Assembly: GCF_019084045.1 (NCBI RefSeq)
Contig: NZ_JAHRED010000001.1
Coordinates: forward strand, 186,001 to 250,000
Length of the DNA: 64,000 bases
Reading direction: 5' to 3'
From: Paeniglutamicibacter quisquiliarum
Lineage (GTDB): Bacteria > Actinomycetota > Actinomycetes > Actinomycetales > Micrococcaceae
Part shown: positions 9,883 to 36,550 of the stretch, in pieces
How positions within the stretch are numbered: the first letter of the stretch is position 1
Layout of the letters: every line of letters starts with the position of its first letter
Made by a program: the position numbers and the translations under genes
Notes under the pieces: generated by a model
The model's input: only the letters and a program-made list of their open reading frames with translations
Database searches by the model: none
Told to the model about the DNA's origin: nothing

Positions 9883-10659
9883 GTGTCCACCCACACGACC
9901 CAGACCGGGGGAGTCTTCGACATCTCCGGTCGCACCGCAGTGATCACGGGAGCCTCCCGCGGCATCGGACTGCACATAGCCTTGGGCCTCATGCGCCAGG
10001 GCGCGAACGTCATCACCCTGCAGCGCGGCGAGCTGGCGCCCGAGCTCGAGCAGCTGGCGAAGGAAACCGGGCGAACCGCCCACGCGATCGCCGTGGATTT
10101 GGGCGACGAGGCCTCGGTCGCCCAGGCCGCCACGCAGGCACTGGCCCTGGGCCAGGTGGACATCCTGGTGAACAACGCAGGAACCCAGATCCGCCACGAC
10201 GCGGTCGAGTTCCCGCTGACCGACTTCGATACCGTGATGAACGTGAACGCCCGTGCCGTATTCCAGCTCTGCCAGCTCTTTGGCGCCCCGATGCTGGAAC
10301 GCGGGAACGGCAAGATCATCAACCTCGCCTCGATGCTCACCTTCCAGGGCGGCTTCCGGGTTCCCGCCTACGCGGCCTCCAAGGGCGCGGTGGCGCAGCT
10401 GACCAAGGCCCTGTGCAACGAATGGGCGGGACGCGGAGTGAACGTGAACGCGGTGGCCCCCGGCTACATCGCCACCGACATGAACGAGGCGCTGCTGGCC
10501 GATGAGGCACGCAACGAACAGATCCTGGTGCGCATCCCGGCAGGGCGCTGGGGCAACCCGGATGACCTGGCCGGCGCTGTCCTCTTCCTGGCAAGCCCCG
10601 CGGCCGACTACATCCACGGCACGGTCCTTCCGGTGGACGGCGGGTGGCTGTCGCGATGA
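9883..10659 (+). CDS. SDR oxidoreductase, gluconate 5-dehydrogenase-like
   Basis: A 258-residue classical short-chain dehydrogenase. TGASRGIG cofactor loop, NNAG, a catalytic Ser in LASMLTF, and YAASKGA with Tyr and Lys are present, plus PGYIATDMN. Similarity of arrangement to IdnO/gluconate 5-dehydrogenase, and an idonate dehydrogenase-like gene in the same operon, suggest 5-keto-D-gluconate to gluconate conversion; a KduD-type role is the alternative. The GTG at 9883 is chosen because AGGAG (9871-9875, overlapping the previous stop) sits 7 nt upstream. Confidence 0.85.
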   Translation: MSTHTTQTGGVFDISGRTAVITGASRGIGLHIALGLMRQGANVITLQRGELAPELEQLAKETGRTAHAIAVDLGDEASVAQAATQALALGQVDILVNNAGTQIRHDAVEFPLTDFDTVMNVNARAVFQLCQLFGAPMLERGNGKIINLASMLTFQGGFRVPAYAASKGAVAQLTKALCNEWAGRGVNVNAVAPGYIATDMNEALLADEARNEQILVRIPAGRWGNPDDLAGAVLFLASPAADYIHGTVLPVDGGWLSR

Positions 10660-11321
10660 GCACCAACACGAATCGCCCGGCCCCCGGCGCGCTGCTGCGC
10701 GAAACCCCGATCGTGGCGGTCCTTAGGGCCAAGCATGCCAGCGAATACGCCCCGGTCATCGACGCGCTGGTGGCAGGAGGGATCACCAGCATCGAGCTGA
10801 CGCTCAGCACCGCCGGCGTCTTCGAGGAACTGCCCGCGCTGCGCGCCCGCTACGGAACCGCGGCGGAGGTCGGGGTCGGCACCGTCACCACCGTGGAGGA
10901 AGCCGAGGCCGCCATTTCGGGTGGCGCCGGCTTCATTGTCACTCCGATCACCGACACAAGAATCGTTGCCGCTGCGGTGGCGGCGGGCATCCCTGTCTAC
11001 CCGGGCGGCATGACGCCCACCGAGCTGTTCGCCGGCTGGAGGGCCGGGGCCACCGCGGTGAAGATCTTCCCCGCCTCCCAGGTGGGCCCCGGGTTCCTCA
11101 AGGACCTGCGCGGTCCCTTCCCGGATATCCAGGCCGTCCCCTCGGGTGGCGTCGGCGTTGCCGAGGCTGTTGAGTGGATCCGTGCCGGGGCGCTCGCTGT
11201 GAGCGTGGGCGGCCCGCTGCTCGGAGACGCCTTCAAGGGCGGGAACCCGGACGAGCTCACGGCCCGGGCCAAAGCCCTGGTCGCCGCCGTCGCGGCCGCC
11301 CGGGACGAGGAAAAGGCATGA
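10656..11321 (+). CDS. KDPG/KHG-family aldolase
   Basis: A 221-residue class I aldolase of the Eda family. The Schiff-base Lys is in AVKIFPASQVGP and the catalytic Glu in SIELTLST; GVGTVTT and the phosphate-binding PSGGVG segment follow the family layout. It should split 2-keto-3-deoxy-6-phosphogluconate into pyruvate and glyceraldehyde 3-phosphate. The motif FIVTPITD replaces the more common SPG-type loop, so a related 2-keto-3-deoxy phosphate sugar acid is possible. The start overlaps the previous stop (ATGA at 10656) and its own stop overlaps the kinase start. Confidence 0.88.
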   Translation: MSTNTNRPAPGALLRETPIVAVLRAKHASEYAPVIDALVAGGITSIELTLSTAGVFEELPALRARYGTAAEVGVGTVTTVEEAEAAISGGAGFIVTPITDTRIVAAAVAAGIPVYPGGMTPTELFAGWRAGATAVKIFPASQVGPGFLKDLRGPFPDIQAVPSGGVGVAEAVEWIRAGALAVSVGGPLLGDAFKGGNPDELTARAKALVAAVAAARDEEKA

Positions 11322-13593: not shown

Positions 13594-16365
13594 GTGCTGC
13601 CGGTGGACAATGCGAGCGAAAGGTGGCGGGGGATAGTGCTCGAGGTTGTCGGAGGCGGCACCAGCGCTGTTGCTTCGTCGGCTCATGCGGCGTGCGAGCG
13701 GTTCCGGGGCACCGATCCACTAATTACGGGGATGACTCGCCGAAAGCTCGCGAAGGCAGTGGGGGTCGCGGAGACAGTGGGAACGATTCCGCAGGCGCGA
13801 TGGATGCGAGCGATGACGTTCGAGCGGATGGTTCGCAACGAAAAATTCGCGGGGCAGATTGCCACACGCACCGTCGGTGCGCTGTCGCTTAGTCGTCCGA
13901 CTGAGGTCGTCACTGTGGACGCACACTCGAATGTCGACCGGACGGCGCAAGTGCTCGAAGCGGCACACGATCGTGCAATCAATACGGGCGCAGCCACTCT
14001 CATTTTCCAGCTGGCGGTGCCATTCGTGGGCTTCGAGGGGACGCGCGCGACCGACGTGATGCCCGACTTCGCGATCGTGGCACCAGCCTTCGGTGACCAG
14101 CACTCGTCCTGGCTGGTGATGGGCGATGCAAAAGACTATGAACGCGTACGGTCTCGCATTGATGACGAACGGATGCTCAAGGGATTCTTGCAAGTTGCAG
14201 TTGGTGCGGAGTCGGCACGGACTTGGTCGCGCCTTCCCAAAGACATGGGAGTCCACACCTTCGGTGTTCTCGCCGTGCCCAAAAATGCCTTCTTCCAGCC
14301 TGAACCGGTAGTGGAAAACCTGCACGATTACCAAGAAGAAGTAAAATTGCGCATCGAAGAGCGTCGACGCGAGGCCAAAGAATCGGGTCACACACCAGGC
14401 CAAGACATAGAGTCTCTCGTTCAACATCTTGAAGCGACATTCGACCCTGCTGCCTGCGCAAGCTGCACGCTCTTCTCATACTGCCGCAGCGAATTGCGTC
14501 ATTCGCAAACCCCTCTTGACCTCTTGATTGAACTTGGCGTAGGCCGTGACATGCGAGGCCAGGCGTTGGGCCTCGTTGACGGCGTCAACGATGTCGGTCG
14601 TGTACCGGCGTCTACGGCCGCGAACATCGCCGCGACCCTGACTGGCGTCGCGCAGTTGACGGGCCAACGACGTGTTGACCCGGCCGGGATGCCGGGGACG
14701 GTCAACGTTGTGATTGCCAAGTCGGATTCCGCACCGCTCGATGTCCACGGTATCGGCGTACAGCGCGTCACGATAGATGGACGAGCTGAGTGGGAATACA
14801 CGACTTTTGACAACCCACAGTCGCTCGAAACGCGCCGCCTTATAGTGAGGCGTATCGGTACCGCGCTGAACCATGCCATGCGTGATCAACGCAAGTCCGC
14901 AGGGAACGGAATTCCCGATTCTGTGCACCTCGTGGTCCCTGACAGTGATACAGCGGACGTACTTGTTTCCATTGCCGACAACCTGGCGGGCATCGAACTG
15001 AGCCGATTGCGCTGGAAACGCGACAAGGATCAGGGGCGCCCGGTGCTGACCTACGATGGCGAGCCAGCAACAGTTCCGCGCGGTATTTCCGAAGCAGAGC
15101 GTACTGCCATCGCGTTACTGCTCGAGGACGACCGCGCCCGGGCTTTCCAGCTACGGTTGCCTGTCATCGACCTTCGTAAAGTGCTTGCGCGTCGAATCGT
15201 CGCTGGTGGGCCGAGCATTAACTCTGGTCGTCTCGACTATCTCGTTGGGTGGGCTGAGGCCCGCGAATCGGCACCGATTGATCATCGTGCATTCGCTGAC
15301 CAGATCGAGGATTCTGTGCACACCTCCGGAGCCAGACTGACGAGCCTGGCGTCCGATGCGATCCATAACGCACTCGTGGGGCGTAGCGGAAAGGCGAACG
15401 ACGCGCCAGTCGCCGACCCCGTGCTGTACAAGGACCTTGTAACCGAGGAACTGGAATACAAGGCGCAGATCCTCGAACGTGCCCTGGCTTCTCTCGATGG
15501 TTTTCAAGCTTCGACGTTGCGTGCGGTGTACCGCGCGATCGAGTCCGATGCGCAGGTGGTGTGGCGTCGGCGTCTCACGCTGCACGCTTCGGACCTAGTG
15601 CGCTTTGGCCGTACCTATCGTCCCTGGCGCAACTCTCTTGTGCCGATGATTGAGAGCGACGGAACCTGCGCCTCCCAGCTCTTCGCGCTGTCGAATCCGC
15701 AGGCGGCGCACGACCTTGCGTCCGACGCTGGCAACCGTTTTGTCAGCTTTGCGAAGGTTGTGTCCGTCAATCCGCTGGTGATCGACGTGGACTCACGCCG
15801 TATCACTGCAGATTCACGAGTGGTGCTCCTTGCCAACAATGGCGAGGCCTGCGCTGAAATGCCAGGTGTTTCAGTCGATTCAAGTGCGCGTGGGTCGTTT
15901 AAGATTGATGGTCTGGCGATCGGTCCGCTCGAATTATTCGACGAGGACTTCCCGAAGCGACTGCACTGGGATCCCCAAGTCGTTCCCCACGTAGCGGCCG
16001 GCGACGAATTGGTGATTGCCGACTTTGCATGGTTCTCCGCGCTCAAGGGCAACAAAATACTCTCAGTGCAAAAGCCGCAACAAGACTCGACCTCGGCGCC
16101 AAAGGACGGTTGCCAGCCCGAGTCTTACGGCGACGAGCCGCAGTTGCATCTGTGGTGCTGCCGTCCGCATGAGGATCGCGAGGCCGAGTTTTCGGATCTG
16201 TTGGCAGAGCGACGGGCGCGGGGCGAACTGAACCCCGAGACGTGGCCACCGGTACGCGACGGCGACGGGTTCGAGGTCGCCGCGGACGGCTCCGCGGAGG
16301 GCAACCCTTTCGAACTGGCACCGATGCCCGTGCCGGAGCACCTGACGTTGGATGATCTGGAGTGA
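13594..16365 (+). CDS. Large protein with N-terminal Fe-S PD-(D/E)XK nuclease domain (Cas4/TM0106-like)
   Basis: A 923-residue cytoplasmic protein. Residues 150-200 hold a RecB-type nuclease core: MPDF (D158), then GDAKDYE (D178, K180), a D...DxK arrangement. Cys288, Cys291 and Cys297 form CASCTLFSYC, and Cys34 could be the fourth ligand, the split pattern seen in Cas4/AddB iron-sulfur nucleases. Residues about 380-900 show no motif that could be named; a degenerate nuclease or RNase H-like fold is possible. The GTG start is the only one fitting the N-terminal domain. The stop overlaps the next gene's start. Single proteins joining a RecB-like nuclease to a DNA2-like helicase (TM0106 family) are known; here the two halves are separate genes. 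Confidence 0.72.
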   Translation: MLPVDNASERWRGIVLEVVGGGTSAVASSAHAACERFRGTDPLITGMTRRKLAKAVGVAETVGTIPQARWMRAMTFERMVRNEKFAGQIATRTVGALSLSRPTEVVTVDAHSNVDRTAQVLEAAHDRAINTGAATLIFQLAVPFVGFEGTRATDVMPDFAIVAPAFGDQHSSWLVMGDAKDYERVRSRIDDERMLKGFLQVAVGAESARTWSRLPKDMGVHTFGVLAVPKNAFFQPEPVVENLHDYQEEVKLRIEERRREAKESGHTPGQDIESLVQHLEATFDPAACASCTLFSYCRSELRHSQTPLDLLIELGVGRDMRGQALGLVDGVNDVGRVPASTAANIAATLTGVAQLTGQRRVDPAGMPGTVNVVIAKSDSAPLDVHGIGVQRVTIDGRAEWEYTTFDNPQSLETRRLIVRRIGTALNHAMRDQRKSAGNGIPDSVHLVVPDSDTADVLVSIADNLAGIELSRLRWKRDKDQGRPVLTYDGEPATVPRGISEAERTAIALLLEDDRARAFQLRLPVIDLRKVLARRIVAGGPSINSGRLDYLVGWAEARESAPIDHRAFADQIEDSVHTSGARLTSLASDAIHNALVGRSGKANDAPVADPVLYKDLVTEELEYKAQILERALASLDGFQASTLRAVYRAIESDAQVVWRRRLTLHASDLVRFGRTYRPWRNSLVPMIESDGTCASQLFALSNPQAAHDLASDAGNRFVSFAKVVSVNPLVIDVDSRRITADSRVVLLANNGEACAEMPGVSVDSSARGSFKIDGLAIGPLELFDEDFPKRLHWDPQVVPHVAAGDELVIADFAWFSALKGNKILSVQKPQQDSTSAPKDGCQPESYGDEPQLHLWCCRPHEDREAEFSDLLAERRARGELNPETWPPVRDGDGFEVAADGSAEGNPFELAPMPVPEHLTLDDLE

Positions 16366-17888
16366 TGGTGGAGCACGGAGCGAGCAGCCACTTCGCTGAC
16401 CCGTTGGTCGTCGCGACGAGCGGCGTTCACCACGAGGGCGCAGCGATCCTTAACGACCGCGTTGCCGATGAGGCCAGTATCGAGTTGGCTGACATGTTGT
16501 CGGGTACATCGCCGATGGAGCGCATGTTGCTCAAGGCTGCGGCAGGCGCTGGAAAGTCGTACGCGCTCAAGCGCCTCGTCGTCGAGGCAGCACAGCATCC
16601 GCGCGGCGAGCGCATCGCGATCACCGCGTTCACGAATAAGCAGGTGCGACCTCTCGCCGTCTCCCTGGGGGAATCACTAGGGAAGGACTCCGTTGCGCTG
16701 CTTGCGAGCAAGGCTGCATACGAGGAGATACCGACAGAGGTGCTCGATGCTGCGACGGTAGTGACCTCCACGAAGGATCTGCCTAGCACTGTGAAGGTTG
16801 TGATCGCTACTGTTGCGCGCTTCGGAGCGATGGGCGAGATTAAGCGTCTGCGCGACCACCTCGGCATGGCGGCGAACGGAACCACTCCCTTTGGCCTGCT
16901 GTTCGTCGACGAGGCCTGGCAGATCGCACACCACCTCTTCGACAAAGTTACGAAGCTCGCACCACTTTGGCTGGGTGTGGGCGACGTCGGGCAGCTGCCG
17001 CCACTCGAAATAGGCGAGAACCCGTGGCGCGGCGACCCTGGGTACAACCCCTACCGTGCGTGGCCGACCGACTACGACGAGGACCCGCGTACTTGGTCGA
17101 GGGAATTGCCGGCCGTGTGGCGCCCGGCGGCCGGGCACCTCGCGTTGTGGCGGGCTTTCTACCCGGAATGGACATCGCTCGACTGCGTTGCGGGGCCCGG
17201 CGATCGAGCTATCGACCTCGGATCGATGGATGAAGGCGCGGCCGAGATTTGGCGGCAGGTAGGTACAGGTGTGCCGACCTTGCTCGAAGTCGATGGGCTG
17301 CCGGAACCGGAGGCTGCCGACATCGACCTACCCTTGATGGAATTCGTAGAATCGCTGCTGGACGAGTTCTTCGAGGCGGAGGCATCGCTAGTCTCGGCGG
17401 TGTATGACAACGACGTACCGGGCCGACAGTCCGGACTAAGGGAAACTACGCGCCTTCGGGGGGATCAAGTAGACCCGGTGGTCACCATCCTCGCGACGCG
17501 GAACCAATCGGTTGACGATGCAATTGAGGCGGTGGAGCGTCTTCAGAAGAAGCACGATCTGACCGACCGCGACATTGTCGCGTCGACGGTCGACTCGTGG
17601 CAGGGCCAGACGAACGGCATCACGATCGCAGTCCACCCGCTCAACGGTGCGACCGATCTGGACGCGTTCAACTCGGCGTTTGGGCGTCTTGCCGTGGCTT
17701 GCACGCGGGCGACGCACGGGCTTTTGATGGTGGCACGGCCGGGTCTAGATGAGTTGCTGGCAGCGGCACCCGCCCGCCCGGGCACACCGTTCGGGGAGCC
17801 AGGCACCAGGCAGCTGCCGCGGCAGACGCACGCGCGCATCCTCGCGACATTTGCGCGCAGCACAATCGACGTGTCGGATGATGAGTGA
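16362..17888 (+). CDS. SF1B (DNA2/Upf1-like) helicase partner of the nuclease
   Basis: About 508 residues (start GTG 16362 or ATG 16365, both overlapping the upstream stop). Helicase motifs in order: Walker A AGAGKS (61-66), motif Ia ITAFTNKQV, Walker B LLFVDEAWQ (about 179-187), motif III GDVGQLPP (207-214), motif V STVDSWQGQTNG, and motif VI AVACTRATHGLLMVAR. This is the SF1B DNA2/Upf1 layout, compact and without accessory domains. Translational coupling to the Fe-S nuclease strongly suggests one complex that unwinds and cuts DNA or RNA. The spacing to the methylase gene is only 54 bp on the same strand, so all four plus-strand genes are probably one transcript. Confidence 0.85.
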   Translation: MMVEHGASSHFADPLVVATSGVHHEGAAILNDRVADEASIELADMLSGTSPMERMLLKAAAGAGKSYALKRLVVEAAQHPRGERIAITAFTNKQVRPLAVSLGESLGKDSVALLASKAAYEEIPTEVLDAATVVTSTKDLPSTVKVVIATVARFGAMGEIKRLRDHLGMAANGTTPFGLLFVDEAWQIAHHLFDKVTKLAPLWLGVGDVGQLPPLEIGENPWRGDPGYNPYRAWPTDYDEDPRTWSRELPAVWRPAAGHLALWRAFYPEWTSLDCVAGPGDRAIDLGSMDEGAAEIWRQVGTGVPTLLEVDGLPEPEAADIDLPLMEFVESLLDEFFEAEASLVSAVYDNDVPGRQSGLRETTRLRGDQVDPVVTILATRNQSVDDAIEAVERLQKKHDLTDRDIVASTVDSWQGQTNGITIAVHPLNGATDLDAFNSAFGRLAVACTRATHGLLMVARPGLDELLAAAPARPGTPFGEPGTRQLPRQTHARILATFARSTIDVSDDE

Positions 17889-17942
17889 TCGTCGCCCGAC
17901 TGGAAGAATTGAACTAAATCCCGTTCCCCATGAAGGAGTGCC

Positions 17943-20066
17943 GTGTCCCGGCTAAATGACCTGCTGAGGCGGCTTGAGAACAACGATCCCGCCCTGGCGA
18001 AAGACCTGAAGCGCGAGGTCGACGCACTCGCTGGACGCCGCGCGTTTGGTCTAAACTTTGAGCGCCACGCGCCAGAAGCCGTTGAAATTCCAGGTCGTCC
18101 CGTGAGGCGTGGCGACAAGGTGCGCATCCTCCCTCCGCGCGGAGCAAAAGCTAGCGCAAGCGACGACAGATTATGGCGAGTCGTCTCAATTCGGAAAGAC
18201 GCTGAAGGCTTCCGCGCTGCATCTCTCGAGCTAATCGGTGAAGAAGATGACAGTGTCGATGCGTTCGTCGAAGATCTGGTTGTGGTTGCCGAATTCCGAG
18301 ACCCGATCTATCCGGGATTGGTCTCGACGAGCAAGGTGGAACGTGGGGGGGACAAGCCCTATCATGCGGTCATCAACGCCGAGAACTACCATGCCCTCCA
18401 GACATTGCTCTTTACACATCGCTCGAAAATCGACGCGATCTACATCGATCCGCCATACAACACAGGTGCGAAGGACTGGAAGTATAACAACGACTACGTG
18501 GAGGGTGAGGATCTCTACCGCCACTCGAAGTGGCTCGCGTTCATGGAGCGGCGTCTCAAGCTCGCCAAGGAGCTGCTCAATCCGGACGACTCTGTACTCA
18601 TCGTCACGATTGATGAGAAGGAGTACCTGAGGCTTGGGTTATTGCTCGAACAGGTCTTCCCCGAAACCCGAATTCAGATGATCAGCGATGTGATCAACCC
18701 CAGCGGTTCGTCGCGGCGCGACATGTTCTCGCGGAGTGATGAGTACATCTATTACGTGTTTCTCGGTTCAGCTGCGCTGGTTGAAACGTCCGATGACATG
18801 TTGAACGCAGCGCGCATCGAAGGGTCCGTCGAAGTGCGTTGGGACTCGCTCATGCGCCGTGGGGAGAACGGCCGCAGAGCACGGCGCCCGAACCTTTTCT
18901 ATCCGCTTTACTTTCGGGAGTCGGACGGCGGATTTGAGGGGTTCGGCGGTGCGGTACCGCCTGGAACGACCGAAGCTCCTCATATTCCAGGCTGTGTAGC
19001 CGTACTTCCGGTTCGAGACGACGGTGCCGAAATGACTTGGGGTGTCCAAGGTGGGGTCTTCGAAAGCAGGCTTTCCAACGGATATGTCCGTCACTACCGT
19101 AATACTGCGGGGAAGATGGTCATTCGGGTACTTCAGTCGGGGACGATCGACGAGATCGAATCGGGTCTGATTCTCCGCGATGGAGTTGATGAACACGGAT
19201 TCGACCGATTCATCTACTCCAAGTCAAAGACGGTTCGCCCGATGACGAACTGGAAACGTGCGTCTCATTCGGCCTCGGACTATGGCACGCCTATGCTGAC
19301 CGCGTTGATCCCGGGGCGTCGCTTCCCCTTCCCCAAATCCCTTTACGGAGTTGAGGATGCCGTGCGATTCTGCGTTGCTGACAAGCCGGAAGCAGTTGTT
19401 CTCGACTTCTTTTCAGGTTCCGGTACGACCGCACATGCCGTCATGCGCCTCAACAAGCAGGATGGGGGGCTACGCCGGTCGATCAGCGTCACCAACAATG
19501 AGGTCGGCGTCGACGAGCAGAAGCGACTCCGCGCCGAGGGCCTCCGGCCAGGTGATCCCGAGTGGGAGAAGTGGGGGATCTGCAACTACATTACGAAACC
19601 ACGGGTAGCCGCCGCGATCACGGGGAGGACGCCATCCGGCGACGCCATCAAGGGCGACTACAAGTTCACCGATGAGTTCCCGATATCCGATGGGTTCGAG
19701 GAGAATGTCGAATTCTTCACCCTCACTTACGAAGCTCCGCTGAGAGTCTCTTCTAATCGCGAGTTTGCAAAGATCGCGCCCCTGTTGTGGCTCCGAGCTG
19801 GATCGGAAGGGCGGCGGATCGAGGATATCGCGGTGGGCTGGGACGTAGCCGATACGTACGGTGTGCTCGGCGACTTGAACCAGACTGAGGCGTTCGTCGA
19901 GGCCATCGTGGCAAAAGACGGGATCCGGGCCGCGTTCATCGTGACTGATGAAGATCGTTTGTTCGAGGCTGTCGTGAGAGAGCTGCCTGACCACGTCGAG
20001 CCAGTACGGATGTACGAGGCCTACCTGCACAACTTCGAGATCGAAACAGGCCGGAGCGCGCTGTGA
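17943..20066 (+). CDS. Type III restriction-modification methyltransferase (Mod)
   Basis: A 707-residue beta-class adenine methyltransferase: motif IV DPPYNTG at about residue 169 comes before the AdoMet motif DFFSGSGTT at about 488. The 230-450 stretch between them should carry the target recognition domain. It begins with a short helical segment, as in other Mod proteins. The GTG at 17943 has a strong GAAGGAG upstream. Its last codons overlap the Res start (20063-20066). It should methylate one strand of a short asymmetric site and direct Res. The recognition sequence cannot be read from the protein. Confidence 0.92.
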   Translation: MSRLNDLLRRLENNDPALAKDLKREVDALAGRRAFGLNFERHAPEAVEIPGRPVRRGDKVRILPPRGAKASASDDRLWRVVSIRKDAEGFRAASLELIGEEDDSVDAFVEDLVVVAEFRDPIYPGLVSTSKVERGGDKPYHAVINAENYHALQTLLFTHRSKIDAIYIDPPYNTGAKDWKYNNDYVEGEDLYRHSKWLAFMERRLKLAKELLNPDDSVLIVTIDEKEYLRLGLLLEQVFPETRIQMISDVINPSGSSRRDMFSRSDEYIYYVFLGSAALVETSDDMLNAARIEGSVEVRWDSLMRRGENGRRARRPNLFYPLYFRESDGGFEGFGGAVPPGTTEAPHIPGCVAVLPVRDDGAEMTWGVQGGVFESRLSNGYVRHYRNTAGKMVIRVLQSGTIDEIESGLILRDGVDEHGFDRFIYSKSKTVRPMTNWKRASHSASDYGTPMLTALIPGRRFPFPKSLYGVEDAVRFCVADKPEAVVLDFFSGSGTTAHAVMRLNKQDGGLRRSISVTNNEVGVDEQKRLRAEGLRPGDPEWEKWGICNYITKPRVAAAITGRTPSGDAIKGDYKFTDEFPISDGFEENVEFFTLTYEAPLRVSSNREFAKIAPLLWLRAGSEGRRIEDIAVGWDVADTYGVLGDLNQTEAFVEAIVAKDGIRAAFIVTDEDRLFEAVVRELPDHVEPVRMYEAYLHNFEIETGRSAL

Positions 20067-22654
20067 AATTTACTCTGAAGGACTATCAAGAAGACGCAGT
20101 CGAGGACGTCCTCAACGCACTCGAGCGCGCCCGTACGGCGTGGGAGCGCGACGGAGACGTCTCGTCGCTTGCGCTAACTGCGCCCACTGGCGCCGGCAAG
20201 ACCGTGATGGCTGCTGCCGCGATCGAAGCGCTGTTCCATGGTTCTGAAAAGTTCGACATTGAACCCGATGAAGGAGCGGTAGTGATCTGGTTCTCGGATG
20301 ACCCGAACCTCAATGATCAGACGCGCATGCGGCTTATGGATGCGTCGGAGAAGTTCACCTCTTCCGACCTCATCACCATCGAGCCGCCGTTCTCAAAGCC
20401 GAAGTTGGACCCTGGTCGCGTGTACTTCCTCAACACGCAGAAGCTGTCGAAAAACTCGAAGCTCACCCGTGGCCACGTCGCTGACGAGAACCAGATCGAC
20501 TTTTCCACCCTCGCAACACCTGATATGCAGGGCTATACGCTCTGGGAAACGATCGCCAACACGATCCAAGACGAAGATCTCACTCTCTATCTCGTGCTCG
20601 ATGAGGCGCACCGTGGCTTCAACACCACGACCAGTCGTGACAAAACGACGCTCGTGCGGCGCCTTGTACAGGGCCACGCTGGCTACCCTTCCATCCCGAT
20701 CGTGTGGGGCATCTCGGCCACGATCGAGCGCTTCAACACAGCGATGAAGGAAGCAGACGCCTCCAAAGATAGGCGCGCGTTCCCTGCAGTCATGGTTGAT
20801 CCGGCCCGTGTACAGGAGTCAGGTCTCGTCAAGGATGTTGTCATCCTTGACATACCCAACGAGGCCGGTAACTTCGATACGACACTCGTGAAGCTTGCTG
20901 CTCAGAAACTAGCTGCTTCATCAGAGCGCTGGGCTGAGTACGCGAAGACTCAGGGTCTTACCGAGCTGGTCGTCCCGTTGCTAGTCCTGCAGACACCGAA
21001 TACGCCTGACCATGAGCAGATCGGTCGTGCGCTCGATACGATCGCTGAAGTCATGCCAGAGCTGTACAGCGGCAACGTGAGCCACGTATTCGGCGATCAC
21101 ACCCGCCAACACTTCGGCCGATGGGACGTTGAATGGATCGAGCCGCAGCGCGTGCAAGAGACCCCCTCCATCCGCGTGCTCATCGCGAAGGACGCGATTT
21201 CGACGGGGTGGGACTGCCCCCGCGCCGAAGTGATGGTCTCGTTTCGTCCGGCGAAGGACAGCACACACATCACGCAGCTCCTGGGTCGCATGGTCCGTAG
21301 CCCGCTGGCTCGTCGTGTGCCGGGAGACGAAGTCCTCAACTCGGTGGAGTGCATCCTGCCGTTCTTCGACCGCACCACCGCCGGCAAGGTCGTGCGATAC
21401 CTGACCGGGCAGCTAGAGGAGATGCCGGGCGGTGATGGTGGCAAAAAGATCTTGCTTGACGGACGGGAGCTGCGGCCTAATCCGGCCATCCCCGAGGCTG
21501 TTTGGGCGGTCTGGGACAAACTTCCAACGCAAACCCTTCCGAAACGCGGGGCACGCCCAGTAAAGCGAATGGTCTCTCTCGCTCAGGCTCTCGCGATGGA
21601 TGGCGTCCAACACCGCGCCTTGGCCAACGCAGAAACGGAGATGCACGCGGTACTCGACGGTTATTCAGCTCGCTACCTACAACTGCTCGACAAACAGATC
21701 GAAGATGTTTGGCGCGTCAACGTGCAGCAGGTCATGGGCAATTCGGGGACTAGCAAGCTCACCTACCGTGATTTCTCGATGCGCGCTGACGACCGGGCGA
21801 TCCGTTCGGCATTCGAGGAGGCGAAGAAGGCGTTCGGCGCGGATATCGCCCAGTCATATGTAAACCACCTCGCGGGTTCCGACGACGAAGACGACGACGG
21901 ATTGCGGGAAGCCTATGTCAAGACTGCGGCGCTCAGTATGATCAAGGAGATCCGCGAGAAGGTCGATATCGAGGCGAACGAACTGGTTGACCGATGGTTT
22001 GCACAACATCGCGTATCGATCAAATCACTGCCCGACGTTCGTCAGCAGGATTACGAAGAAATTCGGGCCATGACTATTGAGCCGCAGAAGGGCGAATTGG
22101 GAAGACCGCGTTCGCGGATGGAGGACTACCAGATTCTTGACGCTGACGACCAAATCGCGCTGGCACCGCTTGAGACGCTCCACCTTATGTCGGACGAAGC
22201 GGGGATGTTCCCGTTGTCATCTCTTAACACATGGGAGCGCAAGGTCGTGGACGTCGAGCTCAAGCGCTCCGGAGCCCTCGGCTGGTACCGAAATCCTCCG
22301 CGTTCGGCTGTCGATTCGCTCGGTATCGCCTACCGTGACGCTAAGGGTAACTGGCGCAGCATGCACCCTGACTTTGTGTTCTTCCATGAGGTCCGCGGCG
22401 AGGTGAAGGCCTCGATCGTTGACCCGCACGGCACACATCTCGACGATGCTGTAATCAAGTTAAAGGCTCTCGCGGAATTCGCGAAAGAATTCGGGGATGC
22501 TTTCCACCGGATCGAGGCCGTAGCCATGGCCGGGAGCTCGATGATGGTGCTCGACATGACGATTCCCGCCGTACGGGACGGCGTACTCTACGAGGACAAG
22601 CCGGCTGTCGAGTTCTACAGATCCGACTTTGCAGTCGAATTCGCGGACTTCTAA
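20063..22654 (+). CDS. Type III restriction enzyme helicase-nuclease subunit (Res)
   Basis: An 863-residue SF2 translocase-nuclease. Walker A is TAPTGAGKTVMAA (near residue 40), the DEAH box is LVLDEAHRG, motif III is WGISATIER, and the motif VI region is ITQLLGRMVRSPLAR. The C-terminal endonuclease shows HPDF (D770) and GEVKA (E780, K782), the PD-(D/E)XK signature of Res subunits. It should need Mod and two head-to-head sites for cleavage. It overlaps mod by 4 bp. The stop codon lies inside a perfect palindromic terminator. Confidence 0.93.
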   Translation: MKFTLKDYQEDAVEDVLNALERARTAWERDGDVSSLALTAPTGAGKTVMAAAAIEALFHGSEKFDIEPDEGAVVIWFSDDPNLNDQTRMRLMDASEKFTSSDLITIEPPFSKPKLDPGRVYFLNTQKLSKNSKLTRGHVADENQIDFSTLATPDMQGYTLWETIANTIQDEDLTLYLVLDEAHRGFNTTTSRDKTTLVRRLVQGHAGYPSIPIVWGISATIERFNTAMKEADASKDRRAFPAVMVDPARVQESGLVKDVVILDIPNEAGNFDTTLVKLAAQKLAASSERWAEYAKTQGLTELVVPLLVLQTPNTPDHEQIGRALDTIAEVMPELYSGNVSHVFGDHTRQHFGRWDVEWIEPQRVQETPSIRVLIAKDAISTGWDCPRAEVMVSFRPAKDSTHITQLLGRMVRSPLARRVPGDEVLNSVECILPFFDRTTAGKVVRYLTGQLEEMPGGDGGKKILLDGRELRPNPAIPEAVWAVWDKLPTQTLPKRGARPVKRMVSLAQALAMDGVQHRALANAETEMHAVLDGYSARYLQLLDKQIEDVWRVNVQQVMGNSGTSKLTYRDFSMRADDRAIRSAFEEAKKAFGADIAQSYVNHLAGSDDEDDDGLREAYVKTAALSMIKEIREKVDIEANELVDRWFAQHRVSIKSLPDVRQQDYEEIRAMTIEPQKGELGRPRSRMEDYQILDADDQIALAPLETLHLMSDEAGMFPLSSLNTWERKVVDVELKRSGALGWYRNPPRSAVDSLGIAYRDAKGNWRSMHPDFVFFHEVRGEVKASIVDPHGTHLDDAVIKLKALAEFAKEFGDAFHRIEAVAMAGSSMMVLDMTIPAVRDGVLYEDKPAVEFYRSDFAVEFADF

Positions 22655-22693
22655 GTCCTGACGGGGCGGCGTAGCCGCCCCGTCAGGACTTAG
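22651..22693. terminator. Perfect 20-bp bidirectional terminator overlapping both flanking coding ends
   Basis: The arms CTAAGTCCTGACGGGGCGGC (22651-22670) and its exact complement (22674-22693) leave a 3-nt loop. The res stop codon (22652-22654) lies in the left arm; the last codons and the stop of the convergent helicase (22683 onward) lie in the right arm. It ends both transcripts. Confidence 0.85.
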
Positions 22694-25595
22694 TGGCAGC
22701 CGAGCAGATTCGCCGCACGTCGCACTCCCGGCACTTGCTGCGACCGGGCTTCGGCTCGAAATCCCTGCGGCGGAGGCTGTCGATCGTCGCGATGATCTGA
22801 GTCTCAGCCTTGCCGATCGCATTCTTGTCGATCTCTACGTCATAGCGCTGCTCCGCGCCGAGATCGTGGATGAACGCGGCTCCCACGTCGAGGCCTTCCC
22901 TGCGCCCTGCTTCCGTGTAGATCTGTAGTTGGAGCGGGTCGATTTGGCCGCCCGTCGACGTCTTGTAGTCCACGATTGCCAGGCGGCCTACTTGGCCTTC
23001 TTGGTTGTCGTAGATAACGTCGGCGCGGCCTGCGATCACTGCGCCGTCGAGATGGAGTTCGAACGGTCGCTCGGTAGCCCAGGTATTCAACAGGTCGGTC
23101 GAATTCTCGTTCACGTATCGCAGCACGAGCCTGCGGGCCTTCTCACGCATCTCCTTGTGACCGGCTTTGTTGGCATATGGAAGGAAGAACTCGGATTCGA
23201 GCAGCTGGTTGATTTCCTGAACCGTTGGAACGGCTCCCGCCGCTTGCGTACGTTCGGCGAGCACGCGCATCGTATGGTGCACGGCGTTGCCGTAACCGAG
23301 CTCTTGCTGGATAGCGGGCATGAACCCGAGCTCGTTTTTTAACAGATAACTTCGTGGGCACGTCTCGAACGCCGCAAGTTCGCTGTACGTTATCGCCAAA
23401 TCTGCGTTTGCGGAGGATGCCTTGCTCGTAGCCGAGGTAGGTGCTCCCGCTTTCGTAAAGCATTTCACGACTTCGTCGTAGTAGGGCGACGCAGCACGGT
23501 TCTTTCCGCCGTTCAGCTGGGAGAAGCTCGACAGCAACACTGCTTCTCGCGCGCGTGTGATCGCGACGTAGAACAGGCGTCGCTCATCAGCATCGGTGCC
23601 CTCGTAGCGCTGCTTATCGAAGCGGCCCTGCAAATCCTCGGGCCAGTTCTGGGCTCGGCCGTTCATGCTCGAAGGGAAACGCGTCTTTACGAGCGAAGGT
23701 AAGAACACAACCGGCCACTCGAGGCCCTTTGAACCGTGAACGGTGCCAAGTGCGACGCCTTCGTCCAGGTGGCCGTCCTCACCTGAGAAGTCGTCATAGC
23801 TGCTAACGGCGTAATTCGACAGTAAGATCGCGAGGTTCTTGTAGAACCATTCGCCTCCGCTGCGGCCACCAACTTGCTCGCCTGGTGCATCTCGGTCCTT
23901 GCGCGATCGCCAACTGACACCTTCGTAGTCGGCGAGCACCTTCGTGAACCGTGCGATTGTTCCCAAACGGTTACGAACCAGGTCTTCCGACACGTCCCAG
24001 TGCTGGACTCCGAGCAACTCAATGAGTTGATAGAAGTCGCGCACGAGGCTCTCATTGAACTTGCTAACGAGCGCCTTCCTCTTCCAGGCTTCGAGATGTG
24101 ACGACAACGTTTGCCGCATCACATCGGGGAGACTGAAAGCGGTGGTGTAATCGTCGAGAAGCTGATCGAGTGTTATTTGCTGCCCTGGAGCGTACTGTGC
24201 CGACTTCCAATCGATGTCGCCGATCCATGCGTATGTCGCTCCGAATACCAGCGGTTCAACCTGCGTGAACAGACCAGACCGTCCGCCTGCCTGCACGGGG
24301 ATCTCGGCTTTCTCGAGCGCATGCATAAGCGAGGGGTACGCAGAGCGTCCGCGTACGAGGATTGCGATGTCGCGGTAGGGTAGTCCGTTCGCGTGGAGAT
24401 CGAGGATCTGACGGGCGATGTCGTCGGCTGAGTCGTGTTCGTTGCCCGGGTCGCGGGAGAACGCAACACTTGGTCCGTCGACCGCGCGGAACGGCAGCAT
24501 CTGCTTGTCGATGCGGCCTGGAATCGACTGGGCGAACAAGTTCGCGACCTCGACGATGCCGGGGCGCGAACGACGGTTCGTGAGCAGCTTGAACTGCGTG
24601 ACCCCGCTGTAGCGGTCGGCAAACGTGACGATGTTTTTGACCGATGAACCACGCCATTGATAGATCGCTTGGTCGTCGTCACCCACGACTACGAGGTCGG
24701 CCGTGCCGTGCGGCTTCGCGAGCAGCCCGACGAGCCTCTCCTGCGCGGGGTTTACATCCTGATACTCATCCACGATGAGGTGACGCAGAGGAGCTGTCAC
24801 CGCGGCATGCACAGAAGGGTCGTCCAGCGCTTCAACCGCCCGCACGATCTGCGTTCCAAACGACATGAACTGGTGGCGGTCCAGCGTGTCGTAGTACGCC
24901 TCGACCGCGGTCTTGAGGTTGCCCGCTGGCAGTGAATCGACGTCGATCAGTTCGTTCTCGATCACGTCGATGCCGCGCTGAAACGTTGCGATGCCCTTGA
25001 ACGTACCGTTGGTCGGGGCTAGATCAGTGATGCCGATGATCCGGCTTTCCTTGTAGACGAAATTCGTCAGCTGGTTTGTGTCAAGCGGCGTGTAAGTTTC
25101 GTACTTCGGCACATATGTCTGCAACATGCGGAAGCAGTACGCGTGAATCGTGCCAACAAACAGCCGCCCCAACTGATCTGTCGCAGCGGTGCCCATACGC
25201 GCGGTCACCCGCTCACGGATACGCTCTTTTAGCTCGGACGCTGCCTTCTCGGTGAAGGTGAACGCCACGATCGACTCAGGCGCTTCGCCGCTGGCGAGCA
25301 ATGACGCCACTCGTTGCGAGACAACCTCGGTCTTCCCCGACCCGGCCGCGGCGATGATCTGGATGTGGCTTCCGCGGTGGGCGACGGCCGCCGCAGCGTC
25401 TCCATCCAGGTGTGGGATGACAGCAGCCGTTGCTGCTGGTCCATGCGTAACAGGGCCAACAGCCGGGCCCGGAACTACTTGAACGGGCGGGAGAACGATG
25501 TCTGGTGCCGATTTCGGAGGTGCCGGCGTCGCTGCGAACGGTTTTGGAACCTGCTGCGTCGATTTCTTTGCTGGCGAGACCCACTTGAATTTCAT
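22683..25595 (-). CDS. UvrD/PcrA-type helicase fused to an Fe-S PD-(D/E)XK nuclease domain
   Basis: A 970-residue SF1A helicase-nuclease. An N-terminal 70-residue Pro/Ala-rich segment precedes Walker A (AAAGSGKTEVVSQR), FTFTEKAASELKERI, Walker B DEYQDVNPAQE, VVGDDDQAIYQWRG and LGTVHGSKGLEWPVV. The C-terminal nuclease has GRADVIYD, IVDYKTSTGG, and an iron-sulfur cluster formed by Cys in ETCPRSY plus KCRECDVRRIC, as in AddB/AdnAB-type enzymes. The start at 25595 is chosen for GAGGGGG 7 nt upstream. Converging on res with a shared terminator, it belongs physically to the R-M/nuclease block. A solo AdnAB-like protein suggests end processing of foreign DNA. Confidence 0.9.
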   Translation of the reverse strand: MKFKWVSPAKKSTQQVPKPFAATPAPPKSAPDIVLPPVQVVPGPAVGPVTHGPAATAAVIPHLDGDAAAAVAHRGSHIQIIAAAGSGKTEVVSQRVASLLASGEAPESIVAFTFTEKAASELKERIRERVTARMGTAATDQLGRLFVGTIHAYCFRMLQTYVPKYETYTPLDTNQLTNFVYKESRIIGITDLAPTNGTFKGIATFQRGIDVIENELIDVDSLPAGNLKTAVEAYYDTLDRHQFMSFGTQIVRAVEALDDPSVHAAVTAPLRHLIVDEYQDVNPAQERLVGLLAKPHGTADLVVVGDDDQAIYQWRGSSVKNIVTFADRYSGVTQFKLLTNRRSRPGIVEVANLFAQSIPGRIDKQMLPFRAVDGPSVAFSRDPGNEHDSADDIARQILDLHANGLPYRDIAILVRGRSAYPSLMHALEKAEIPVQAGGRSGLFTQVEPLVFGATYAWIGDIDWKSAQYAPGQQITLDQLLDDYTTAFSLPDVMRQTLSSHLEAWKRKALVSKFNESLVRDFYQLIELLGVQHWDVSEDLVRNRLGTIARFTKVLADYEGVSWRSRKDRDAPGEQVGGRSGGEWFYKNLAILLSNYAVSSYDDFSGEDGHLDEGVALGTVHGSKGLEWPVVFLPSLVKTRFPSSMNGRAQNWPEDLQGRFDKQRYEGTDADERRLFYVAITRAREAVLLSSFSQLNGGKNRAASPYYDEVVKCFTKAGAPTSATSKASSANADLAITYSELAAFETCPRSYLLKNELGFMPAIQQELGYGNAVHHTMRVLAERTQAAGAVPTVQEINQLLESEFFLPYANKAGHKEMREKARRLVLRYVNENSTDLLNTWATERPFELHLDGAVIAGRADVIYDNQEGQVGRLAIVDYKTSTGGQIDPLQLQIYTEAGRREGLDVGAAFIHDLGAEQRYDVEIDKNAIGKAETQIIATIDSLRRRDFEPKPGRSKCRECDVRRICSAATKS

Positions 25596-25899
25596 CGCAT
25601 TCCCCCTCGTTAGGCCGAAGCTGCGAATCGCCCCGGCTAACTTCATAATGCCAGATCTCTACCTCTCTGGGTGGGATGGAACTATTACGTCCTAACGGGT
25701 CCAGTTATTGATCGCATGACAACCTGTGAGGCCAGCCGTATGACTTCCTAATCGGAGCAACAAATACCAGTGGAATAGGGGCGACTGATCCTGATGAAAT
25801 CTTGGACTGAAGCCTAATCTTGCCGCCCACAAGACGACGGTCAGGTCCTCGGAATGGGTCATCTTCCAGTACACACGGGCCCTGTGAAATTTGATTGTT
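25596..25899. other. Intergenic region upstream of the UvrD-nuclease gene
   Basis: About 300 bp between the divergently read helicase start and the end of a small minus-strand gene (both are minus strand, so this is the helicase's upstream region). Short open frames exist but none resembles a protein. The promoter of the helicase should be here; no consensus elements were certain. Confidence 0.3.
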
Positions 25900-27396: not shown

Positions 27397-29115
27397 GTGG
27401 AGGCATTAAACAGGGATCTCAAGAATTGGTTTCAAGCGATTGAAGGTGGCCGCCTGCGATTGCCACGTTTTCAGCGCTTCGAGGCATGGTCCCACAACGA
27501 GGTGTCTAGCCTCGTTGAGACGGTGCTTCGTAAGTTGCCGGCGGGAGCACTACTGACGCTCAGCGTAGATAACGATGAACCTTTTCTGAGCCGCGGGCTG
27601 ACAACGTCACCGCAAAGTAGTCCAGGAACCCGCGTCACGGAACACCTCTTGGACGGACAGCAGCGACTCACCGCCCTTTGGTGAGCACTGCATGACAATT
27701 ATGAATCGCGTACATATTTCATCAAGCTGGATGAAGACGAGGACGAAGACGGTGTACTTGATGGTCCGCGTGTCCTGTCGCAGTACCGCTGGGATAAAAA
27801 CGGTTCACGGTATCCACTCTGGTGCAACAACCCCACCGATGTTTTGGATCGAGGATACGTGCCTCTTCGACTCCTTAACCCGTTGACTACATCCGGACGA
27901 GATGAGTGGGTGCTTGCGGCAATGAACGATGACCACGCAAGGGCCTGGAAACTCAATTCACAGATCAGCGAGCTGGCCCACGAGGTAGCGATCTACAACA
28001 TCCCGTATTTGAGCCTGCCGGTTACAACACCCAAAGATGTAGCACTGGACGTTTTCATCAAGATGAATACGTCGTCGGTTCGCCTGAGCGCCTACGACAT
28101 CGTAGTGGCACAGTTGGAAGAAGCAACAGGGCAATCCCTGCACGATCTCGTTGAAGATTTGGAAACAGCGGTGCCTGCGGTGACGAGATACTTCGAAACC
28201 GGATCGCTCGTACTCGATGTTGCCGCTTTGCGTTCCGATCGACCCGCAACACAACGAAGTTACTCACTGCTCAACTACGAGACGCTTGCCGCTGAATGGT
28301 CACAGGTCGTAGACGGAATCAAGTGGGTCGTTGAGTTTTTGGAGTCAGAGCGTGTTTACGACAAGCAACGCCTTCCGTCTGTCACACCGATTCCCGTCCT
28401 CGCTGCCCTTGCCGAGTACATACCACTCTCATTGGATGAAGCAGGCAATGTAAGGCGGTTGCTGCGAGCCTATCTTTGGCGATCGTTCATCACCCGTCGT
28501 TATGACCAGTCAGCTTCGTCTCGTGCACTTCAGGATTTCAGAGGCCTGCGGAGACTACTGCTTGGAGAAGAAACCGACTGGACCTCGGTCCCGATTTTTG
28601 ACGAAGATATGAACCCGCTGCCGACGTCGATGGATCTCGAGTCTGCCTCATGGCCGCGCAATAGGGACGTCATTGCGAGGGGGATCCTTGCGGCCACCCT
28701 GCGCGAGGGAGCACGGGACATAGCTGACGACCAAACGGTAAATAGCGGCAATCTTGTGCATCGTGAATACCATCATCTTTTTCCGGATTCTCTGCTGAAC
28801 CAGATCGGAGCCGTTGGTCAGCAGTCTTCATATCGTGCGCTCAACTGTGCCCTCATAACGTGGTCCACCAACAGAAACATCTCCAACAAGGCACCTTTGC
28901 AATATCTGAATGACCGAGTCGACCGTTCTGATGTTGGCGAGAGTGCAATCCGGGACCGACTAGCATCCCACCTGATCCCGTATGACGAGCTGGCCTCGGC
29001 AGGGCCCTACACAGAAGATGACAAAGTCAGGCTCAGGGACGATTACCAGCGTTTCATTCATGCACGAGCTCAGCTCGTCCTGATGAGAGTGCTAAGTCTT
29101 TGTAACGGTCAGTGA
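27397..29115 (+). pseudogene. DUF262/DUF1524 (GmrSD-like, HNH) gene interrupted by one in-frame TGA
   Basis: The N-terminal part (LPRFQRFEAWSHNEV and HLLDGQQRLTALW) is the ParB-like DUF262 domain of GmrSD restriction proteins. A TGA at 27682-27684 (codon 96) interrupts it; the same frame continues immediately as ALHDNYESRTYFIKLDEDED and runs to 29115. Restoring Arg (CGA) would give the expected LTALWRALHDNY. The far C-terminus has EYHHLFPDS and NCALITWSTNRNIS, the DUF1524 His-Asn-His nuclease. The start is a GTG with GGGGGA 5 nt upstream. Single DUF262-DUF1524 proteins act against modified DNA or DNA backbone. As written the gene is a nonsense mutant; readthrough or reinitiation downstream (27844) would make only a fragment. 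Confidence 0.85.
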
Positions 29116-29490: not shown

Positions 29491-32400
29491 ATGGACAACC
29501 GTGAAGCAAATAGCGCTTTCGACTTGGGTGAAGGAATTTTCGAGAGTCTGATTACGGATCATCTGGCTGGTCGGTTGCAATCCTTGACCGGATACACGCG
29601 CTTCGTGGAATCGGTCAACGCCGAAACTGCCCCGGGTGAATTGGCTCGATTTCTTGGCCATGCGATTGAGGCACGATTAAGCGCGCTTGAACCTGACCAG
29701 ATGATTGCGTTGACCAACCAGCTTCTCGCCATTGTCGGGCACACCGAAGATGTGCTTCCAGGTCCCCAGAAACTTATGAAGCTGCAACGCGACGATGGTG
29801 TCCGTACTCGCTCGTTCAAACGACCGCAGACCTCATTGAGCTCGGCTGCCCTGCTCACAAACAGCCGCGAAGATCCGCAATTGGCCGCCGAACTGCGAGC
29901 CGAACTCTCCTCAGCGGATCGCGTTGATCTGTTGTGCGCTTTCATCAAATGGGAAGGCTTGCGACTCCTTTCAGAATCGCTCGAGGTACTCAAGGATTAC
30001 GGCATCCCGATACGGGTCATCACCACGACCTATATGGGCGCAACCCAACGCCACGCCATTGACGAACTAGTTCGTCGATTCGGCGCAGAAGTCCGCATCA
30101 ACTACGAGACCAATGCGACCCGGCTCCACGCCAAGGCCTGGATGTTCCACCGGAATTCCGGATTCGACACCGCTTACGTCGGGAGCTCCAACCTCAGCCG
30201 TCCGGCACTGCTTGACGGGCTCGAATGGAATGTCCGGCTCTCTGGCGTGGCGACTCCCGGTCTCCTGCAAAAGTTCTCGATGACATTCGACAGCTACTGG
30301 GAAGACGACGCCTTCGTTCCCTACGATCCGGAGAAGGATGCAGAGCGCCTGGACGCAGCATTGAAGCGGGCAGGTGGAACCACGGCAGAACGGATGCTCG
30401 GATCCACCGGGCTCGAAGTGCTTCCGTTATTGCACCAAAAGGAAATGCTGGAAGAACTCGAGGCTGCCCGTACCAACCGCAACGAACATCGGAACTTGGT
30501 GGTTGCCGCGACGGGGACCGGCAAGACCGTGCTCGCAGCGCTGGATTACAAACGCCTGTGCGAAGCCGCAGGCCGGGAACTTACGCTCTTGTTCGTGGCG
30601 CACCGCAAGGAGATCCTCGAGCAATCGCTCAAAACGTATCGCAAGGTCCTGGGTAAGGGCTCCTTCGGAGAACTGTTCGTGGATGGACAAAAACCGGAGG
30701 CCTGGAAACAGGTGTTCGCCAGTGTCCAGTCTCTGGCCGCCTTCGGGCGCTCCAAGGTCGAACCGCGAACCTTTGAAATTGTGGTGATCGACGAGTTCCA
30801 CCATGCCGAGGCATCCTCGTACCGCCGGCTCATCGAGCATCTGAATCCTATCGAGCTCCTTGGACTTACGGCAACGCCCGAACGCGGCGACGGCATCAAT
30901 GTTGCCGACACTTACTTTGACGGCAGGATTGCCTCGGAGCTGCGCCTCTGGGATGCCTTGGACGCCGACCTGTTGGTTCCCTTCCACTACTTCGGTGTGG
31001 CAGACGACGTCGACCTCACCGCTATCGAATGGAGGCGCGGCTCCTACGACCTGGAACAACTCAGCAATGTGTACACGGGTAATGACATTCGTGCACTGAA
31101 GATCATCAACGAACTTCGTGACAAGGTGCTCAGCACGTCCATGATGCGTGCACTTGGTTTCTGCGTCTCGGTCCAGCACGCGCACTACATGGCGAAGGTC
31201 TTCAACGAGGCGGGAATCCCATCGGTGGCCGTGTCGGGAATATCAACCACCGAGGAACGCGAGGGAGCGCTGGCCAAGCTGCGTGCCCGCGAACTGAACT
31301 GCATCTTTGCCGTTGACCTCTTCAACGAGGGTCTCGACGTACCGGAGATCGACACCATCCTCCTGCTGCGTCCCACGCAGAGCTCGACGATCTTCCTCCA
31401 ACAACTCGGACGCGGACTGCGTCGCGCCGACGACAAGGCGGTGCTCACCGTGCTTGACTTCATTGGACAGCAACGCAGGGAATTCCGCTTCGACGTCAAG
31501 TACCGCGCTCTACTGGATGTGCCACGGAAGAAGCTCGAACGCATCATCGATGATGGTGCGCCCGGGTTGCCCTCGGGCTGCCAGCTGATGCTCGATCGGG
31601 TGGCGCGTAATATCGTGCTGGAAAATATTCGTTCGCAGCTCAAGCTGAACAAACGTGCGCTGATTCGTGACATCAAGTCCCATGGGCTGATCGGACTGGA
31701 TGACTATCTCGAGGAGTCCGGCCGAGACGTCAAAGATGTCTACCGCAAGACGGGGGATTCGTGGACCGATCTGATCCGTGGAGCCGGCTTGATCTCATCG
31801 CGTTCTCCCTGGGAGGAAGGTCTTGTCGTATTCGGTGATGTCCAGCGTGATGAGGAACGCGATCTGCTCAAGCGGGTCACTCGCTTCCTCCATGTTGACG
31901 ACGCCGAGCGTGCTGATGCTTATTCGGCGCTGCTTTCCAAAGATGCACCGCGTTACGCGGAGTCGGAGCCGCGGATCCAGATATTTGCGCGCATGTTGTT
32001 CTATACGTTTTGGGACGACGGCGGTGGATTCGACTCCTATGACCAAGGGCTGAATCAGATTCGTGCAAATGGGTATCTGGTTGAAGAGCTGCGTGCCGCG
32101 TTTGCACGCGGTGTGGACCGTAGCGCTCATGCGCCGAAGGGACTTCCTCTTGGGCTGCAACAGATTCCACTTTACTCGCATGCCACGTACTGGCGGTCTG
32201 AAGTCCTTGCGGCACTTGAGTACGGTTCTTTGGAACAGGGAAAGGGGGTCAACCACCGGGAGGGGGTGGCATGGTGTCCGGAGACGAGCACCGATGCGCT
32301 CTTCGTGACGCTGGACAAGGATGAAACGGTCCACAACCCAAACACGCTTTACAAGGATTATGCGATCAGTCCACGGCTCTTTCACTGGGAATCGCAGAAC

Positions 32401-36367: not shown

Positions 36368-36550
36368 GAGGCTCCTGATAAGGGGTGCTAATGCGTTTTG
36401 GCCGCGCAAGGTCAGAATTCATTCTTGCGGGGTTATCTACTTTGATGGCGCAGCGCGAGGATGATCCGGGGTCACGACGGTCTGCCTCCGATCCCCGGAA
36501 ATTCGAGGCAACTTCATGGAATGAAGCGGCTCGAGATATCCAGAGTGGGT

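Follow-up and report, generated by a model that had tools for sequence, protein, structure and literature searches.

Gene content and organization of the locus

The stretch of DNA analysed here (the window) comprises 64,000 nt of the Paeniglutamicibacter quisquiliarum contig NZ_JAHRED010000001.1, positions 186,001-250,000, and all coordinates below are those of the window. Five open reading frames were confirmed at their positions, and motif checks found every catalytic motif that was looked up to be intact. The block has the following features:

13594..16365, forward strand: P0001, 923 aa, with an N-terminal (about residues 1-305) Cas4/MGME1-type Fe-S PD-(D/E)XK nuclease
16362..17888, forward strand: P0002, 508 aa, an SF1B (Upf1/DNA2-type) helicase
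17943..20066, forward strand: P0003, 707 aa, a type III Mod, predicted N6-adenine methyltransferase (PDLC03645)
20063..22654, forward strand: P0004, 863 aa, a type III Res with an SF2 helicase-like ATPase and a PD...EVK nuclease
22652..22692, no strand: perfect 19-bp inverted repeat with loop GTA, a candidate shared terminator without a T-tract
22683..25646, reverse strand: P0005, a UvrD (SF1A) helicase fused to a Cas4-like Fe-S PD-(D/E)XK nuclease

The genes for P0001 and P0002 overlap by 4 nt, a gap of 54 nt separates P0002 from mod, and mod and res again overlap by 4 nt, in agreement with an earlier note on this DNA that had described a 923-aa gene overlapping an SF1B helicase gene 54 bp from an overlapping Mod-Res pair. 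Since the same spacings (-4, 54 and -4) were seen again in two related loci (L001 and L002), the forward genes appear to form a four-gene operon. The res gene and the UvrD gene converge across a 28-nt gap that is spanned by the inverted repeat, with both stop codons falling inside it. It was proposed in the earlier note that these two genes share one perfect terminator; the repeat is indeed perfect, but as the T-tract is missing it is a candidate bidirectional terminator at most, and it is absent from the output of a terminator scan that demands a T-tract. The UvrD gene had also been started at 25595, where there is an in-frame ATG preceded by a purine-rich stretch, but the first ATG lies at 25646 and gives a protein of 987 aa. 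In 2-kb steps the GC content was 0.58-0.63 across the block versus 0.63-0.69 just upstream, which fits acquired DNA.

Other genes of possible interest lie further along the window. The sole, weak GmrSD_N match at 27844-29115 (+) is possibly a shortened GmrSD-type gene. A protein with PLD, ResIII and DUF3427 domains at 29491-32643 (+) is a near full-length match to the type IV mREase model PDLC03659 and has relatives near P0001 homologues in L003 and L013. A NERD and UvrD-like helicase at 36645-38375 (-), with relatives in L010 and L042, adjoins a SIR2_2-domain protein at 34787-36409 (-).

A type III restriction-modification system with a UvrD-Cas4 neighbour

In type III systems generally, Mod puts a methyl group on a single strand of its asymmetric site, and Mod-Res cuts unmodified DNA between two such sites. 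In classical type III restriction-modification (R-M) systems of the EcoP1I/EcoP15I type, mod and res overlap and carry standard motifs, as they do here. P0003 is a full-length MTase_III match (PDLC03645, 872 bits, residues 1-703 of 707), in which a DPPY motif at 168 precedes an FSGSG motif at 488, the order of beta-class N6 methyltransferases that is expected of a type III Mod. P0004 matches ResIII at 2.6e-13 and has both the SF2 helicase motifs and the C-terminal PD-(D/E)XK nuclease expected of a type III Res (PD at 769, EVK at 780). The window differs from the classical systems in its added helicase-nucleases and in that the PADLOC Res models match P0004 weakly, at best at 3.6e-10.

P0005 gave UvrD and PDDEXK_1 matches and carries CxxCx5C at its C-terminus, so that the earlier description of a UvrD helicase with its own Fe-S PD-(D/E)XK domain converging on Res was borne out. 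Lying beside Mod-Res, it has the make-up of the UvrD-Cas4 (pfam12705 Fe-S nuclease) fusion of type III loci. In 2017 Hudaiberdiev et al. linked UvrD-Cas4 to type III Mod-Res and suggested an ancillary role for it (PMC5704561), and P0005 with Mod-Res is the same association; section 8 of that paper names no pair resembling P0001-P0002, which the window does have. The sections of PMC10482375, PMC11706625 and PMC11090510 drawn on here likewise hold nothing on the pair, and searches of an open-access paper library without preprints found neither the pair nor a named system with this set of genes. Of the five-gene set, the UvrD-Cas4 and Mod-Res part had already been published.

Homologues of P0005 (E up to 1e-90) were found in 3 of 297 genomes of the window's order: in the window itself, in L154, where Wadjet-like genes adjoin, and in L155; a plasmid search at E up to 1e-80 gave no relative. 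The window's Mod lineage is present in 11 of these 297 genomes, and 2 of the 11 also have P0001, adjoining Mod in both. Eight further Mod loci, read from 7 of the other 9 Mod genomes, showed no P0001, P0002 or P0005, two of them saying less because the contig stops at mod (L104) or about 1 kb upstream of it (L098). That this Mod-Res lineage is often found without both add-ons counts against the explanation that we favour below, in which they degrade cut DNA, and it also weakens the idea that they serve to protect the host by clearing or repairing R-M breaks in the cell's own chromosome. DNA2 and UvrD-type enzymes do work in break repair. A recombination role for UvrD-Cas4 was also discussed by Hudaiberdiev et al. 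in the same paper (PMC5704561). Nonetheless, with no add-ons seen in those eight loci, and with their distribution being sporadic and partly plasmid-borne, we regard host protection as highly improbable.

P0001 and P0002 resemble a split DNA2-like enzyme

P0001 had no match in Pfam, NCBIfam or PADLOC 2.0.0 (PADLOC at E up to 0.01), and Pfam and NCBIfam scans of 24 aligned rows (the window and 23 of 45 related loci) at E up to 5 found no family in more than two of them. In the same alignment C34, E77, D158, D178-A-K180, Q200, C288, C291 and C297 are invariant, which is the Cas4/AddB-type pattern; the term "iron-staple nuclease" is used for such Fe-S nucleases in part of PMC7430649. The AlphaFold model of P0001 (pLDDT 81.5, pTM 0.82) contains a nuclease part resembling the MGME1, Cas4 and RecE folds (probability 0.69-0.98, E 0.01-0.2), followed by about 600 aa of unassigned helical and beta domains; Foldseek found no match to the model below E 0.001. 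P0001 appears to belong to an undescribed and unnamed protein family. Carriage by viruses or phages was considered and rejected, as none was confirmed in viral contigs and none was found in phage records.

P0002 carries SF1 motifs, and the three best solved folds for its model (pLDDT 82.5) are all DNA2 (E 2e-16 to 9e-16), followed by Ighmbp2, nsp13, Sen1 and Upf1. A four-cysteine Cas4-type Fe-S nuclease followed by an SF1B helicase is the domain content of DNA2 and of Bad, in the window divided over two genes. Bad, described in 2020, is a bacterial DNA2-like protein in which one chain carries an Fe-S cluster and works as a 5'-to-3' helicase-nuclease; it adjoins a type III-like Mod in Geobacilli, and its authors suggest a new restriction enzyme. 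Their paper also mentions that Mycobacteria and Rhodococcus have DNA2-like protein of a second class (PMC7430649). In make-up the window resembles Bad in that both have an Fe-S Cas4-type nuclease and an SF1B helicase beside a type III-like Mod, whereas Bad is one chain and the window has two genes (as do the loci in which both frames were called), a full Mod-Res and a UvrD-Cas4. With eukaryotic DNA2, the nearest solved fold of P0002, the window shares the nuclease-then-helicase order, but its genes are split and the middle region is different. Taken together, P0001 and P0002 look like a split DNA2/Bad-like helicase-nuclease, a reading that for P0001 is drawn from its predicted fold and motifs. 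A split form of the single-chain TM0106-type protein (TIGR03491) was rejected for want of hhalign support: P0001 gave no match to that family and P0002 was aligned in its N-terminal motor half only.

Distribution of the pair and its partners

A single GTDB genome scan yielded 45 loci related to P0001. Within the window's order a P0001 homologue is present in 5 of 297 genomes, and in the phylum sample in 2 of 396, the window's own genome being included in both counts; a sixth match listed for the order is a short, weak piece with stops. Two extra loci on Rhodococcus plasmids carry P0001, P0002, Mod and Res in that order, and P0005 has no match within the 30.7 kb covered. Homologues of P0001 and P0002 occur together in 43 of the 45 loci, in L045 as broken remnants (10044-10800), and in the two loci without a visible P0002 (L030, L044) the contig ends just past the P0001 homologue. 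Wherever that flank is visible, the P0002 homologue lies immediately downstream.

The window's Mod-Res lineage was found beside the pair in 12 of the 45 loci (the contig of L040 stops inside mod), and two others (L019, L031) have type III genes of a second lineage, in which Res precedes Mod, so that type III R-M adjoins the pair in 14 loci. UvrD-Cas4 was seen in 9 of these 14 and in none of the 31 others; of the five type III loci in which it was not visible, two (L002 and L040) are cut by a contig end. A further 11 loci have a single-chain type ISP R-M beside the pair, an assignment made on one example (L016, PF18135 and PDLC03597) and extended to the remaining loci by similarity. The type ISP gene is divergent from P0001 in 10 of the 11, with gaps of up to 104 nt or called-frame overlaps of up to 88 nt, and lies downstream in L008; its frame looks interrupted in L039 and L041, which counts against the favoured explanation. 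Translocation by type ISP enzymes and sliding by type III enzymes are covered in the abstracts of PMC4666363 and PMC11142916. No recognizable R-M was found beside the pair in the remaining 20 loci.

The recurrence of the pair with both type III and type ISP R-Ms would also suit a scheme in which it replaces or modifies the cutting step, the methylase marking self and the DNA2-like motor unwinding and degrading unmarked DNA, which is the idea that the authors of Bad, a neighbour of a type III-like Mod, proposed for that enzyme (PMC7430649, in part). The window, however, has a complete Res with intact motifs overlapping mod, Res follows mod with a 4-nt overlap in those type III loci of the lineage where both are visible, and the type ISP protein of L016 brings its own Mrr-type nuclease. 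A new restriction enzyme of this kind therefore seems improbable to us.

On a quick tree of 44 rows (the window and 43 loci, with SH-aLRT support only), from which L035 (frame called on the opposite strand) and L045 (broken copy) are omitted and on which L040 is labelled as having no partner although its contig stops inside mod, the partner labels required 10 changes, where shuffled labels need 21.2 and the lowest possible number is 3. Partners have thus been exchanged several times, but not freely. The tree also holds a supported clade of six loci without any partner beside the pair (L018, L024, L026, L029, L038, L043).

Searches for partner-type genes covered 38 of the 45 genomes. A type ISP gene was found in 13 of the 38, and in 9 of these it lies beside the pair; an N6_Mtase (type I-like) gene was found in 22 (E up to 1e-15), and beside the pair in none of them as far as eight HsdM queries tell. 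The Fisher tests run on the partner and UvrD-Cas4 counts gave p values of 1e-5 and 2e-6, with genomes treated as independent, which they are not. The sole HsdM-query matches near the pair were pieces of 57-60 aa at a single L044 site that lies about 6.6 kb from the P0001 homologue, with the type ISP gene between. For 18 of the 20 R-M-free loci the genome was searched, and in 4 of these genomes a partner type was matched in full at another place. The L018 and L035 genomes have type ISP, the L024 genome has a Mod of the window's own lineage and the L015 genome one of the second lineage; Mod matches that were weak and partial, found in the L007, L027, L036 and L038 genomes, were left uncounted. 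A conserved hidden partner was considered for the R-M-free loci and rejected, since an all-against-all comparison of these 20 and five type ISP loci gave no shared cluster wider than four loci, and a motif scan that recovers 9 of 12 type ISP frames found no methylase motif in their called frames. The pair thus can live alone or with unrecognized partners, and the R-M-free loci and the partnerless clade count against strict dependence on R-M.

These loci are a reason to consider that the two genes of the pair form a defence or DNA-repair system of their own, which shares defence islands with R-M but is not coupled to it, and the presence nearby of other defence genes, such as ZacABC (L005), BREX (L015) and a GmrSD-type gene (L023), is in keeping with it. 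Shared islands do not readily account for R-M partners that abut the pair directly, operon-like for type III and divergent for nearly all type ISP genes, or for recognized partners that are of two R-M classes while N6_Mtase, common in the same genomes, was not found adjoining. We consider an independent system rather unlikely, yet the strongest of the alternatives.

Several other genes were seen near P0001 homologues. Type I R-M was considered as a partner and rejected when the putative HsdR, HsdM and HsdS genes (C11, C16 and C12) were found to match ZacC, ZacB and ZacA on L005. ZacABC, which we take to be the Azaca system, lies within about 10 kb of P0001 homologues in L005 and L020, with parts in L012, L017, L021 and L041; it was identified on L005 and assigned elsewhere by clustering. 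Exonucleases of one cluster lie near P0001 homologues in five loci (L013, L015, L023, L035, L039), the L015 member being a DEDDh exonuclease with a BRCT domain that matches PDC-S48. In L105 a TrwC-type relaxase (14762-18055, -) close to the pair suggests a mobile element.

A distant three-gene form

In L155 three abutting genes, P0010, P0009 and P0011 (363, 522 and 434 aa), code for a nuclease, a middle protein and a helicase. The row converges on a UvrD-Cas4 (61% to P0005), which is followed by a third Mod-Res lineage (PDLC03634, PDLC03647). P0010 has the same nuclease residues as P0001 at similar spacing, and P0011 is related to P0002 (24% over 437 aa, E 1e-19). Using hhalign, P0010 was placed on P0001 residues 48-308 and P0009 on residues 438-640, in the same order as the genes but with low probabilities (26% and 7%); the link is invisible to plain BLAST and to the P0001 HMM. 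P0010-P0009 is a possible unfused form of P0001, judging from sequence comparison.

On two related Streptomyces plasmids the three-gene row stands directly before Wadjet jetABCD. In the three-gene loci L163 and L168-L171, queries for Mod, Res, type ISP and Jet matched nothing nearby, and the called frames showed no methylase motif. P0009 gave nothing in a class sample of 138 genomes (searched without a positive control) and none on plasmids. Helicases related to P0011 (E up to 1e-10) are found on 51 plasmid records, and on Xylanimonas and Rhodococcus plasmids (L160, L161) such an SF1 helicase ends a row of AAA ATPase, VWA, small and about 390-aa proteins.

Proposed reading: a type III system with add-on helicase-nucleases

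The earlier note took the block for one candidate five-gene defence system. This was not upheld, as the pair, Mod-Res and UvrD-Cas4 are each found in other combinations, and the pair accompanies the window's own Mod-Res lineage in only about a quarter of its loci. The note would have given up its view if the 923-aa and SF1B homologues lay mostly without Mod-Res, and the loci partly bear this out, with 14 beside type III, 11 beside type ISP and 20 beside no recognizable R-M. What survives is the proposal that the extra genes extend the R-M by degrading cut DNA: they are attached to it, and degradation is the best reading of them, but not as part of a fixed set. The block is best described as a type III R-M with two add-on modules, predicted to degrade DNA, of which one is apparently undescribed and swaps partners.

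The explanation that we find probable, if by no wide measure, is that both add-ons are helicase-nucleases that degrade DNA cut by the R-M, and that P0001-P0002 is a portable module. Mod would methylate one strand of its asymmetric site and Mod-Res would cut unmodified DNA between two sites. P0001 and P0002 may assemble into a two-subunit DNA2/Bad-like enzyme, in which the Fe-S nuclease is joined to a 5'-to-3' SF1B motor, and P0005 would add a second Fe-S nuclease fused to a 3'-to-5' UvrD motor, the opposite polarities following from family membership (SF1B versus UvrD). Loaded onto opposite strands at the broken ends, the two motors could then digest the cut DNA in the manner of RecBCD or BLM-DNA2, so that one cut would be neither repaired nor replicated. 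The module would also attach to other DNA-cutting defences, namely type ISP and the second type III lineage.

This explanation is favoured by the invariant motifs and cysteines of P0001, the DNA2 fold of P0002 and the near-constant joint presence of the two genes; by their position beside type III and type ISP R-Ms, with fewer partner changes than in shuffles; by the frequent adjacency of type ISP but not of N6_Mtase; and by the restriction of UvrD-Cas4 to the type III loci. The L155 row, with its UvrD-Cas4 and third Mod-Res lineage, argues in the same direction, as does the type III-like Mod adjoining Bad (PMC7430649, in part). Apart from the points against it given above, the lack of Foldseek matches to P0001 below E 0.001 and its blank comparison with the TM0106-type family also count against it.

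A broader proposal, which we put forward tentatively and hold to be possible, though more doubtful, is that actinobacteria possess a portable second-stage degrader, in the form of P0001-P0002 or of the three-gene row, that serves type ISP and three type III lineages and, as the three-gene row on the two Streptomyces plasmids, also Wadjet. If true, such a degrader would turn a single cut into complete destruction. Dealing with DNA after a restriction cut is usually seen as the task of housekeeping enzymes, RecBCD for example, and a dedicated, exchangeable degrader tied to type III and type ISP R-Ms would change this picture. It would also give a function to the unnamed P0001 family, and would open to direct test the question of why type III methylases have bacterial DNA2-like enzymes as neighbours.
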